A stretch of DNA of 64,000 nucleotides. It comes from an uncultured Treponema sp. (GTDB lineage: Bacteria > Spirochaetota > Spirochaetia > Treponematales > Treponemataceae). The stretch is taken from positions 62,001 through 126,000 of the forward strand of contig CAMCRZ010000004.1 of the NCBI GenBank assembly GCA_945877425.1, in the 5' to 3' direction. Below the pieces are notes generated by a model. The model ran no database searches. It had not been told where the DNA came from and was given only the letters and a program-made list of their open reading frames with translations. A program made the translations under genes and the position numbers. Below, one piece after another: positions 18,462-29,044 of the stretch (its first letter is position 1; each line of letters starts with the position of its first letter).

Positions 18462-18536
18462 TGACGCATGGCAGGCTCGAACTGCCGACCCTCTGCTTAG
18501 AAGGCAGATGCTCTAATCCAACTGAGCTAAGGCGTC
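18462..18536 (-). tRNA. tRNA-Arg (anticodon UCU)
   Basis: 75 bases. The D arm (GCTC/GAGC), anticodon arm (TCTGC/GCAGA) with loop CTTCTAA and anticodon TCT, and T arm (GGCAG TTCGAGC CTGCC) fold normally. The acceptor stem GACGCCT/ATGCGTC has six pairs and one C-T mismatch at the sixth position. The discriminator is A, and CCA is not encoded. The gene has its own promoter and terminator and reads AGA codons. Confidence 0.95.
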
Positions 18537-25777: not shown

Positions 25778-25866
25778 TTCTAGTAAATTTCGTAAAATTT
25801 AATAATTGTAGTTGTTGTGGGACGGCTTCAGTTTTTTATATTGCATTTCGTTCTCTGGAGGGGATG

Positions 25867-27564
25867 ATGAACGAATGGTTTAAAAAAATCGTATCATCTT
25901 TAAAAGAAAAGTGGTCTAAGTGGACTGTACTGAAAAAATTGCTGGCAGTGGGCATTGCTGTTGCTGCTGTGGGTGCCGTTATCTGGCTTGTAGCAGGTTC
26001 ATCTAAAGAATCTACAATAAGACTTTTTGCCAGACCTGTAACAGATGACGCAATGCTTGCACGTATTGAAGCTCGTCTTGCTCAGGAAAACGTTCAGGTT
26101 TACATTTCTAATGACGGTTACATCAGCGTAGATAATGAAAAAATTGCAAAAAAATGGCGTGCCCAGTTGTCTGTAGAAGGACTTTTGCCTTCTGATTTTG
26201 ACGTTTATGCTATTTTCAACGATCCTTCATGGAACAGAAACGACAGGGACGATCAGGTAAAATACAAGAAATTAGTTGAAACTAAGCTTCAGGAACAGCT
26301 TTCCCAGCTTGAACACATTGACCGTGCAGTTGTAACTGTAACACTTCCGGAGGAAGCAGTTTACGCAAGTATGCAGAAGCCGGCAACCGCATCTGTAACG
26401 CTTTTTACAACCGGCAATATGGATTTGGAAAAAAATACAGTAAAAGGCATTCAGTCACTTATAGTAAAGGCAGTTGAAGGTTTAGTGCCGGAAAACGTTG
26501 TCATTTTAAACTCTACGGGAAATCAGATAAATGATTTTGAAGGAATGGCAGAAAGTGACCGTCTTTCAAATATTGAACGTACACAGAAAATCAGGCAGCG
26601 TCTTGAAGCAAAATATGCCAACGACGTAAAGGCTCAGCTTGAAACTATTTACCCTGGCCGTGTAAGTTTAGGACTTATGACTGTTGACTGGGATTTTTCT
26701 GAAGAAAAGGAAAGCGGCACCGAGCACACTGCACCTGTTATAAAACAAGATAATAAAGATACAAGTTACGACGACGGTAAAGTTGCAGAAGAAGGATTTC
26801 CAATCAGTTCTGAAACAGTAAGAAAAGAATACGTTGGCTCTTTGTATAATCCTGAAGGACCTGCAGGCGTTGACGGTCTGACTCCTCCGAATTACAGTGA
26901 TTTAAGCAATGCAATAGGCAAAACTACGGAAGAAGGAGTAAAGGTAAACAGGGTTGTAGATGTCCGCAATTATGAAAAAACCGTTACTCCAAGACCTTCC
27001 CGCATAAGTTTTTCCGTTAACATTGACGGTGTGTGGACAAAGGATTTAGACAGCAGGGGAAACATAATCTTTGAAAACAACAGGATAAAGCGCACTTACA
27101 CTCCTTTAAGTCCTGAACAGCTTAAAGCGGCTAAAGAAACTGTTGAAGGTGCATTAGGTTCCGATAAAGACAGAAACGACAATATAGTTGTAACAAACCA
27201 GATGGTTGACCATAGTGCAGAATTTGAAGCAGAAGATATGGCTGAACTTAAAAGGCAGAACCGCAACAAAGCTATTGTCCTTATACTTATAGGAATTGCA
27301 GTTGTTCTTGTTATATTTATTCTGTTCAGGATTATTACAAGAGAAATTGAAAGGCGCCGCCGTCTTAGAGAAGAAGAACTTTTGCGAAAGCAGCGTGAAG
27401 AAAGGGAGCAGGCTCTCTGGGATGCAAAGGAACAGGGCATGGAAGTTACAATGTCGGTTGAAGAGCGCAAGAGGGCAGAACTTCAGGAAAGTGCAGTTGC
27501 CATGGCAAAAGAGCATCCGGAAGATGTTGCTATGCTTATCCGTACGTGGCTTATGGAGGAATAA
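25867..27564 (+). CDS. fliF: flagellar MS-ring protein FliF
   Basis: 565 residues from the second of two adjacent ATGs; GGAGGGG ends directly before the first (25864), so 25867 has the better spacing. FliF forms the membrane ring on which the rotor and export gate assemble. Two membrane helices (~20-42 and ~465-485, VLILIGIAVVLVIFILFRII) flank the periplasmic ring domains. The C-terminal end HPEDVAMLIRTWLMEE is the FliG-binding peptide. The last codons (GGAGGA) also serve as the ribosome site of the next gene, which starts three bases after the stop. Confidence 0.97.
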   Translation: MNEWFKKIVSSLKEKWSKWTVLKKLLAVGIAVAAVGAVIWLVAGSSKESTIRLFARPVTDDAMLARIEARLAQENVQVYISNDGYISVDNEKIAKKWRAQLSVEGLLPSDFDVYAIFNDPSWNRNDRDDQVKYKKLVETKLQEQLSQLEHIDRAVVTVTLPEEAVYASMQKPATASVTLFTTGNMDLEKNTVKGIQSLIVKAVEGLVPENVVILNSTGNQINDFEGMAESDRLSNIERTQKIRQRLEAKYANDVKAQLETIYPGRVSLGLMTVDWDFSEEKESGTEHTAPVIKQDNKDTSYDDGKVAEEGFPISSETVRKEYVGSLYNPEGPAGVDGLTPPNYSDLSNAIGKTTEEGVKVNRVVDVRNYEKTVTPRPSRISFSVNIDGVWTKDLDSRGNIIFENNRIKRTYTPLSPEQLKAAKETVEGALGSDKDRNDNIVVTNQMVDHSAEFEAEDMAELKRQNRNKAIVLILIGIAVVLVIFILFRIITREIERRRRLREEELLRKQREEREQALWDAKEQGMEVTMSVEERKRAELQESAVAMAKEHPEDVAMLIRTWLMEE

Positions 27565-27567
27565 AAA

Positions 27568-27975
27568 TTGGAAAGTCAGAACAGTCAGTTTTTTACGAAA
27601 ATCTCAGGCGATATAAAAATAAACGGAAAAATAAAGGCTGCCATGCTTTTAGGGGAACTTACCAGCAGCAGTGCCGATTGCGTACTTTCATATCTTAAGC
27701 CGGAAGAAAAGCAAAAACTCAGGGACGCATTTTACAGACTTGGCACCAAAGTTGACTTTGCCCGTGAAATTGCAGTCTTGCAGCAGGCAAATAATTTTGG
27801 TGTAGCCCGTGAAATTGCGCAGCCCATTCATACAGACGAAGAAATAAAATCAATTATTGACTACGAACAGGCAAAAATAAATATTTCAACGCCAAATATG
27901 AAACCAGAACAAAAAATCAACCTTAATCCGGAAGATATTGCTAAAGTTTTAGGAACTTGGCTCAGGGAGGACTGA
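27568..27975 (+). CDS. unrecognised small flagellar protein: FliG-N-like with a FliF-like tail
   Basis: 135 residues from a TTG start, with GGAGG in the end of fliF as ribosome site. Residues 23-58 resemble the FliG N-terminal domain: 12 of 36 positions equal the neighbouring FliG, including KAA, VL and RL (KAAMLLGELTSSSADCVLSY here). The last 16 residues, NPEDIAKVLGTWLRED, match the FliF C-terminus HPEDVAMLIRTWLMEE at eight positions, and that end is the part of FliF that binds FliG. The frame is intact, sits between fliF and fliG with gaps of 3 and 1 bases, and its own end supplies the fliG ribosome site, so it is not debris. I know no named family; a role in FliF-FliG coupling is inference. 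Confidence 0.8.
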   Translation: MESQNSQFFTKISGDIKINGKIKAAMLLGELTSSSADCVLSYLKPEEKQKLRDAFYRLGTKVDFAREIAVLQQANNFGVAREIAQPIHTDEEIKSIIDYEQAKINISTPNMKPEQKINLNPEDIAKVLGTWLRED

Positions 27976-27976
27976 T

Positions 27977-29044
27977 ATGGCAGAAGAAAGTGCAGGTAAA
28001 TCAGGGAAAATTTCCGGTAAAAAGAAAGGCAGTGCTAAAGATTATAAAAGCTTGACGGGAAGACAGAAAGCTGCCATTTTTCTTGTTGCATTGGGAAGTG
28101 AAGTTTCTTCTGAAGTTTTAAAGCATTTGCGTGATGATGAAGTTGAACAGATCACTTTTGAAATTGCACGTCTTGAAACTATTGATGCAGATTTTAAAGA
28201 TCAGGTTCTGGAAGAATTCCAGGAGTTGATGCAGGCCCAGAACTTTATTACTACAGGCGGCATTGATTTCGCCCGTGAACTTCTTGAAAAATCTCTCGGT
28301 TCTCAAAAAGCAATCGACATTATCAACCGTCTTACTTCAAGTCTGCAGGTTCGTCCTTTTGACTTTATCAGGCGTACAGATCCGGCTCATTTGCTTAACT
28401 TTGTTCAGCAGGAATATCCGCAGACAATTGCACTTATTCTTGCTTACCTTGATCCTCAGAAAGCAGCCGTAATTCTGTCATCTTTGCCTACAGAAACTCA
28501 GCCTAAAGTTTCAAAGCGTCTTGCTACGATGGATCGTACTTCCCCTGATGTTTTGCGTGAAGTTGAACGTGTTCTTGAAAAAAAACTTTCTACTTTGTCC
28601 AGCGAAGACTATACTGCAGCCGGTGGTGTTGACGCCATTGTTGAAATCCTTAATAACGTTGACCGCTCTTCTGAAAAAGCAATTATTGAAACTCTTGAAG
28701 AAGAAGATCCGGAACTTGCAGAAGAAATCAAGAAGAGAATGTTCGTATTCGAAGACATTGTTATGCTTGATGACCGTGCAATCCAGAAAGTTCTCCGTGA
28801 AGTTGATACTCAGGAACTTGCAAAAGCTCTTAAGTCAGTTGATTCGGACGTTCAGGACAAGATTTTCCACAATATGTCTAAACGTGCAGCAAGTATGCTT
28901 AAAGAAGATATGGAATTTATGGGACCTGTTCGTCTTAAGGATGTTGAAGAATCTCAGCAGAAAATTGTTAGCGTAATCAGAAGACTTGAAGATTCCGGTG
29001 AAGTTGTTATTGCCCGTGGCGGTGATGAAGAAATGATTGTATAA
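27977..29044 (+). CDS. fliG: flagellar motor switch protein FliG
   Basis: 355 residues, full length. FliG joins the MS ring to the C-ring and takes torque from the stator. The N-domain (LTGRQKAAIFLVALGSEVSS), the middle domain with PQTIALILAYLDPQKAA (EHPQ-like region), and the charged C-terminal torque helix (LDDRAIQKVLREVDTQELAK) are all present. GGAGG lies six bases before the ATG within the preceding gene. About 25 extra Lys/Gly/Ser-rich residues precede the N-domain. Spirochaetes often have two FliG proteins; this is the one in the main basal-body operon. Confidence 0.97.
   Translation: MAEESAGKSGKISGKKKGSAKDYKSLTGRQKAAIFLVALGSEVSSEVLKHLRDDEVEQITFEIARLETIDADFKDQVLEEFQELMQAQNFITTGGIDFARELLEKSLGSQKAIDIINRLTSSLQVRPFDFIRRTDPAHLLNFVQQEYPQTIALILAYLDPQKAAVILSSLPTETQPKVSKRLATMDRTSPDVLREVERVLEKKLSTLSSEDYTAAGGVDAIVEILNNVDRSSEKAIIETLEEEDPELAEEIKKRMFVFEDIVMLDDRAIQKVLREVDTQELAKALKSVDSDVQDKIFHNMSKRAASMLKEDMEFMGPVRLKDVEESQQKIVSVIRRLEDSGEVVIARGGDEEMIV

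Follow-up and report, generated by a model that had tools for sequence, protein, structure and literature searches.

The joint between FliF and FliG transmits torque from the switch ring to the rod of the flagellar motor and is described as a two-protein contact. Its closest described counterparts to the element treated here are the D1 part of the FliG N-terminal domain (PF14842), represented in the FliF-FliG complexes of PDB 5TDY and 5WUJ and in Salmonella cytoplasmic rings (C-rings) such as 8UMD and 8VIB, and the C-terminal tail of FliF, a peptide that co-folds with FliG D1 and reads SPSDIAEIVRLWFFE in Thermotoga maritima (5tdy_A). The window analysed here, that is, the whole stretch of 64,000 nucleotides from an uncultured Treponema sp. 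(assembly GCA_945877425.1, contig CAMCRZ010000004.1), carries between fliF and fliG a small gene whose product has a head like FliG D1 and an end like the FliF tail. Compared with FliG, this protein has no D2 hairpin, M domain or C domain, ends in a linker plus the FliF-like tail, and has alignment-invariant residues of its own, such as E30 and E67. With the FliF tail it has in common the motif xPxDIAxxLxxWL, placed at its very C-terminus. Unlike FliF it is without the domains of the membrane-supramembrane ring (MS-ring), with no Pfam or NCBIfam FliF match, YscJ/FliF ring-building domains included, in the small protein, and its tail is borne on a soluble FliG-like head. Engineered FliF-FliG fusions from Salmonella and Vibrio (PDB 8Z4D is named as both) also unite the two halves of the split domain in a single chain. 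In those fusions the FliF chain precedes the FliG chain (945 residues in 8Z4D), whereas the present protein occurs naturally, is tiny and has the opposite order, starting with the FliG head and ending with the FliF tail. Both parts are known already, and what is new is their union in one small protein, in the order opposite to the laboratory fusions.

We take the spirochaete paralogues FliG1 and FliG2 to be, like the small protein, extra FliG-derived proteins beside the main FliG. FliG paralogues keep the other FliG domains, whereas the small protein keeps D1 only and adds the tail of the partner. A second match to FliG_N in the window's genome lies in a frame of 443 residues outside the flagellar operon (G000:C1:12440-13072; loci L243 and L245), perhaps a spirochaete FliG1. 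No Pfam or NCBIfam family names the small protein, and searches of the open-access literature listed no title or abstract opening that describes such a protein, subscription papers being mostly outside this scope. The original prediction made from this DNA cited no named flagellar gene of this kind.

The original prediction held that the product copies both partners of the interface, and it counted 12 of 36 positions identical to the adjacent FliG (residues 23-58) and eight of 16 identical between the two C-terminal ends, of the small protein and of FliF. A recount gave the same figures, and profiles run on the window and on genomes lacking the gene bear the double resemblance out. The first homologue search covered 59 related genomes, the window's own included, and yielded 16 further homologues of similar length (L002-L017), with any match at an expectation value (E) <= 10 in 25 genomes; alignment A1 has 17 rows and the later alignment A2 has 100. 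In A2, K23, A25, L27, E30 and E67 are invariant, and G20, L31, G32, L58, V70, L71, G78, A125 and W131 are kept in at least 90% of rows. Head and tail profiles were built without the window row and run on the 592 window frames of 40 amino acids or more. Apart from the gene itself, the head profile ranked FliG highest (E 7e-16, with the next frame at 0.14). The 23-column tail profile gave its best score to the C-terminal residues of FliF (E 1.6e-4; next 0.39). The family profile (E <= 10) was also run on nine chosen gene-less genomes, 94-99% complete, in 1 to 4 contigs and from three genera. In all nine it found a FliG-length frame (E 3e-11 to 5e-8) together with the end of the adjacent frame of 570-586 residues, which its position and length mark as FliF (E 0.006-0.03). 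A second FliG-like frame in one of these genomes was the sole additional match. When the whole profile was searched against PDB sequences, the top hit was the FliG of the T. maritima complex with FliF (5tdy_B, E 2e-9), and the FliF C-terminus was matched weakly (6scn_A, residues 491-558, E 0.16).

For the head, the best Pfam match of the window protein is FliG_N (residues 18-60, E 9e-4), at 20.2 bits and thus below the Pfam cut-off of 25 bits; the next matches are two unrelated families (E 0.013 and 0.14), and in the family alignment 99 of the 100 members match FliG_N at E <= 0.01. There is no Pfam match to FliG_M or FliG_C in its 135 residues. The predicted structure and its structural alignment contain the D1 fold corresponding to FliG residues 1-67, and alignments to FliG N-domains end at FliG residue 67-84. 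A FliG-like fold, on which the original prediction depended, is thus borne out in the model, and the D2 hairpin, by which one FliG completes the head of the next FliG, is absent.

The gene is present in 99 of the 200 genomes of the window's genus, where carriers were defined as places at E <= 2.4e-17 and the remaining matches (about 1e-6 to 1e-9) were taken as FliG by frame length and match range; some genomes scored as absent may be incomplete assemblies. At the level of the family, 113 of 274 genomes and 4 of 20 genera are carriers (E <= 1e-13), with one copy per genome save one genome with two. Of 247 genomes drawn from across the phylum, 14 were carriers, every one of them within the same family (3 of 125 genera), and matches beyond the family at E <= 1e-10 are FliG-length frames. 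The gene was not found in three single-contig genomes of sister genera (one of 1.1 megabases, two of 2.8 megabases). Homologues in related genomes, without which the original prediction would have fallen, therefore exist, and among the genomes searched the gene is confined to part of the Treponemataceae. Carriers known by name, among 54 loci, include T. berlinense, T. socranskii, Treponema sp. JC4, C6A8 and a metagenome assembly labelled T. bryantii, alongside many uncultured Treponema genomes. A large collection provided 59 proteins, mostly nameless, the named ones being called hypothetical, with one FliG and one FliF. The sole genome with two copies (G192:C70:3768-4166 and G192:C10:64926-65321) has a contamination of 6% and may for that reason be a mixed assembly. 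The gene occurs in 4 of 22 genus genomes without any FliG-type match versus 95 of 178 others (Fisher p 0.0015, uncorrected for kinship and with second matches not individually checked); the four carriers are at most 74% complete.

The local layout is compact. The small gene starts 3 bases after fliF, whose stop codon occupies 27562-27564, and ends 1 base ahead of fliG, both neighbours being full length by NCBIfam. The original prediction of an intact frame tied into the operon by overlapping ribosome sites is confirmed by the coordinates and by the positions of GGAGGA and GGGAGGA (Table 1), and a complete GGAGGA precedes the small gene in 16 of the 19 named loci in which it is sandwiched between fliF and fliG.

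Table 1. Features of the fliF-fliG region, in positions of the window
Feature	Coordinates	Strand	Remarks
fliF	25864..27564	+	NCBIfam TIGR00206, E 1.3e-83
FliF C-terminal tail HPEDVAMLIRTWLMEE, resembled by the end of the small gene	27514..27561	+	
Ribosome binding site GGAGGA of the small gene	27555..27560	+	overlaps the end of fliF, 7 bases before TTG
Small gene, 135-residue protein with FliG-like head and FliF-like tail	27568..27975	+	TTG start, TGA stop; 135 codons plus TGA
FliG D1-like head, residues 16-83	27613..27816	+	predicted helices 20-30, 33-40, 45-58, 64-80
Variable linker, residues 84-119	27817..27924	+	poorly conserved, predicted helix 90-106, replaces the D2 hairpin of FliG
FliF-tail-like end NPEDIAKVLGTWLRED, residues 120-135	27925..27972	+	W131 kept in 99 of 100 aligned members
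Ribosome binding site GGGAGGA of fliG	27965..27971	+	inside the end of the small gene, before the fliG ATG at 27977
fliG	27977..29044	+	NCBIfam TIGR00207, E 1.8e-148; also Pfam

The order fliF, small gene, fliG is found in 19 of the 54 named loci, and also in a sister genus (L237). The junction closes up where the gene is not inserted: the gap between fliF and fliG is 3-4 bases in 20 of 20 genomes with the gene elsewhere and 0-4 bases in 19 of 20 gene-less genomes. One gene-less locus (L224) has a fliG frame that starts directly behind fliF and is broken after about 150 codons, by assembly error or a true break. On a quick FliF+FliG tree of 77 genomes the sandwiched state requires nine changes, six of them forced by well-supported branches, which implies several moves, losses or re-insertions of the small gene. 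Among 18 close, non-independent pairs from the named loci (synonymous divergence, dS, < 0.8), the ratio of nonsynonymous to synonymous divergence (dN/dS) is 0.03-0.15 in 13, 0 in two and 0.17-0.29 in three; across the full set of 60 pairs (dS 0.05-1.2), the ratio has a median of 0.13 and a maximum of 0.95, the high values coming from distant pairs. An apparent natural fusion of FliF with the small protein (a 722-residue frame in one genome) was rejected, as the DNA shows a TAG between the genes.

In the reading we tentatively prefer, the small protein is a double-ended accessory subunit of the FliF-FliG joint. The original prediction proposed that it could cap, compete at or extend the connection between MS-ring and C-ring, which is an inference. 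Its head is predicted to hold a FliF tail, and its own FliF-like tail is predicted to enter a FliG head. Because D2 is missing, the small protein would end the inner FliG ring rather than continue it. An accessory subunit at some joint positions is favoured over an obligatory layer, and it might be used, for example, where FliF and FliG numbers differ or where the inner ring must end. The conservation of the partners is relevant here. Mean identity to consensus of FliF tails is 0.95 in sandwiched genomes (37), 0.975 in those with the gene elsewhere (20) and 0.969 in gene-less ones (20), and that of FliG heads is 0.91 (36), 0.94 (20) and 0.93 (19), one row having been dropped from each of the sandwiched and gene-less FliG-head sets where the motif was not found. 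At least four of the compared columns differ in a clade-like manner (one position, for example, has D or E). Since the tails of FliF and the heads of FliG are conserved to the same degree whether or not the gene is present, direct contact probably persists for most FliF-FliG pairs, and the small protein would then serve only some positions. With 37 of 96 carriers sandwiched and about half of the genus without the gene, it is an accessory rather than a standard joint part. A conserved protein with both contact halves offers a direct handle on capping, counting and extension at the joint; it is a candidate for density at the joint in treponeme motors, and illustrates how simply the interface between two proteins can give rise to a new gene.

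That the protein is a natural double-ended adaptor built from both split-domain halves, adding a link between MS-ring and C-ring that joins unequal rings or tunes ring size and coupling, is possible, though rather doubtful. If true, this would be the first known dedicated protein at the FliF-FliG joint. How the numbers of FliF and FliG match is still debated (PMC11087270, PMC10128058, PMC6663468): one Salmonella study gives 33 FliF to 34 FliG (PMC11087270), other studies 34 to 34 (PMC10128058), and spirochaete C-rings are large, with 46-fold symmetry in Borrelia (PMC6663468). A number mismatch is not established, since by one account both proteins match at 34 in E. coli (PMC10128058) and the MS-ring of Borrelia has likewise been modelled as 46-fold (PMC11750108). 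Six PDB entries (12dr, 12ds, 12dt, 12du, 12dw and 12eq, 269 chains) contain a 569-residue FliF close to the window FliF (E 2e-89); they may represent the MS-ring of a spirochaete, and its number of subunits would be relevant to a possible mismatch.

The pairing itself was modelled at locus L081, where fliF, the small gene and fliG share one reading frame. AlphaFold2 was given a single chain made of the last 37 FliF residues, the small protein and the N-domain of FliG. Glycine replaced the two stops, and the alignment had 38 rows, 11 of which include a FliF or FliG part. The predicted local distance difference test (pLDDT) score was 68.9 and the predicted template modelling score (pTM) 0.47; by segment, pLDDT was 90-91 in FliF tail residues 11-30, 72-89 in the small head, 62-74 in the small tail and 71-82 in the FliG head. 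By aligned ranges rather than coordinates, single FliG M or C domains fit residues 145-262 of the model, which are the small tail plus the FliG head, and two-domain FliG chains fit from the FliF tail onward, at a root-mean-square deviation (rmsd) of at least 8.8 A. The FliF-tail/FliG_N complex is reported to resemble FliG_M (PMC6079021), and the fit can accordingly be read as a FliF tail on the small head and the small tail on FliG. The model, which is of modest confidence and the one complex-like piece of evidence, counts as a hint, as chain order favours that same pairing. The FliF-FliG chain 8z4d was absent among the matches listed for the structure searches with this model.

Several observations, the matching ring numbers cited above among them, weigh against the reading as a double-ended accessory subunit. 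The tandem model is one chain in which the nearest head to each tail was given, with the pTM and rmsd stated above; the single-protein model places the tail poorly (pLDDT 49-65); and the tail profile alone, run against PDB sequences, gave no significant match, FliF ranking only seventh (E 0.58). The absence of the gene from about half of the genus counts on the same side. Presence between fliF and fliG, which the original prediction proposed to map, was found for homologues in 37 of 96 carrier genus genomes examined (of 99), and in the other 59 the gene lies away from fliF-fliG. The most frequent neighbour family is seen at 9 of 35 such named loci, and a shared partner gene there was accordingly rejected, the neighbours being clade-specific. 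A permanent link at every joint position was likewise rejected as the main reading, because FliF tails and FliG heads hardly differ with or without the gene, and this would count against our reading if it were taken as permanent.

The same data bear on three other explanations. The protein could be a soluble competitor or assembly brake, whose head caps FliF tails or whose tail plugs FliG heads until the time for assembly, when it is displaced. It has both binding halves without FliG_M, FliG_C and D2, and its position 3 bases behind fliF and 1 base before fliG means that all three would be produced together. A scattered occurrence (99 of 200 genomes) and loose location suit a regulator, and unchanged FliF tails and FliG heads suit a transient partner. 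A pure plug, however, needs one half, and both are kept (the tail tryptophan and the FliG_N match each in 99 of 100 members); we consider this explanation somewhat unlikely. The tail might instead fold onto its own head as a self-closed copy of the composite of FliF tail and FliG D1, which would take the D2 hairpin of a FliG and end or seal the inner ring. The linker of residues 84-119 looks sufficient in length to bring the tail back to the head of the same protein, the head residues common to D1 are conserved, and D1 receives the D2 of the neighbouring FliG in published structures (PMC11087270). Tail placement is not confident in the single-protein model, however, and the tandem model, with its chain-order bias, pairs the tail with the FliG head instead; such a cap appears improbable.

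Less credible still is that the protein has reused the fold for a role outside the flagellum, or that it is the decaying remnant of a duplicated joint. The unrelated neighbours in many genomes (for example DUF5718, cytidylate-kinase-like or capsule-synthesis-like genes) would fit either, whereas the 13 of 18 close pairs at dN/dS 0.03-0.15, with two at 0 and the highest at 0.29, the near-constant tail tryptophan (99 of 100 aligned members) and exact insertion between fliF and fliG in 37 genomes speak against both. So does the finding that none of the 12 genus genomes at least 75% complete and without a FliG-type match carries the small gene.

Among the stand-alone loci, the close relatives L099 and L102 have, immediately downstream of the small gene and on the same strand, a separate gene that encodes the C-terminal domain of a FliG (PF01706; E 2e-26 in L099; L099:6498-6974 (+) and L102:6358-6954 (+)). 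At L101, L121 and L124 the stand-alone gene is beside or near a gene of the chemoreceptor (methyl-accepting chemotaxis protein, MCP) family, and at L121 it directly adjoins a GGDEF gene. The sole Rfam match in the window at gathering thresholds is a tRNA at 18462-18536 (-).
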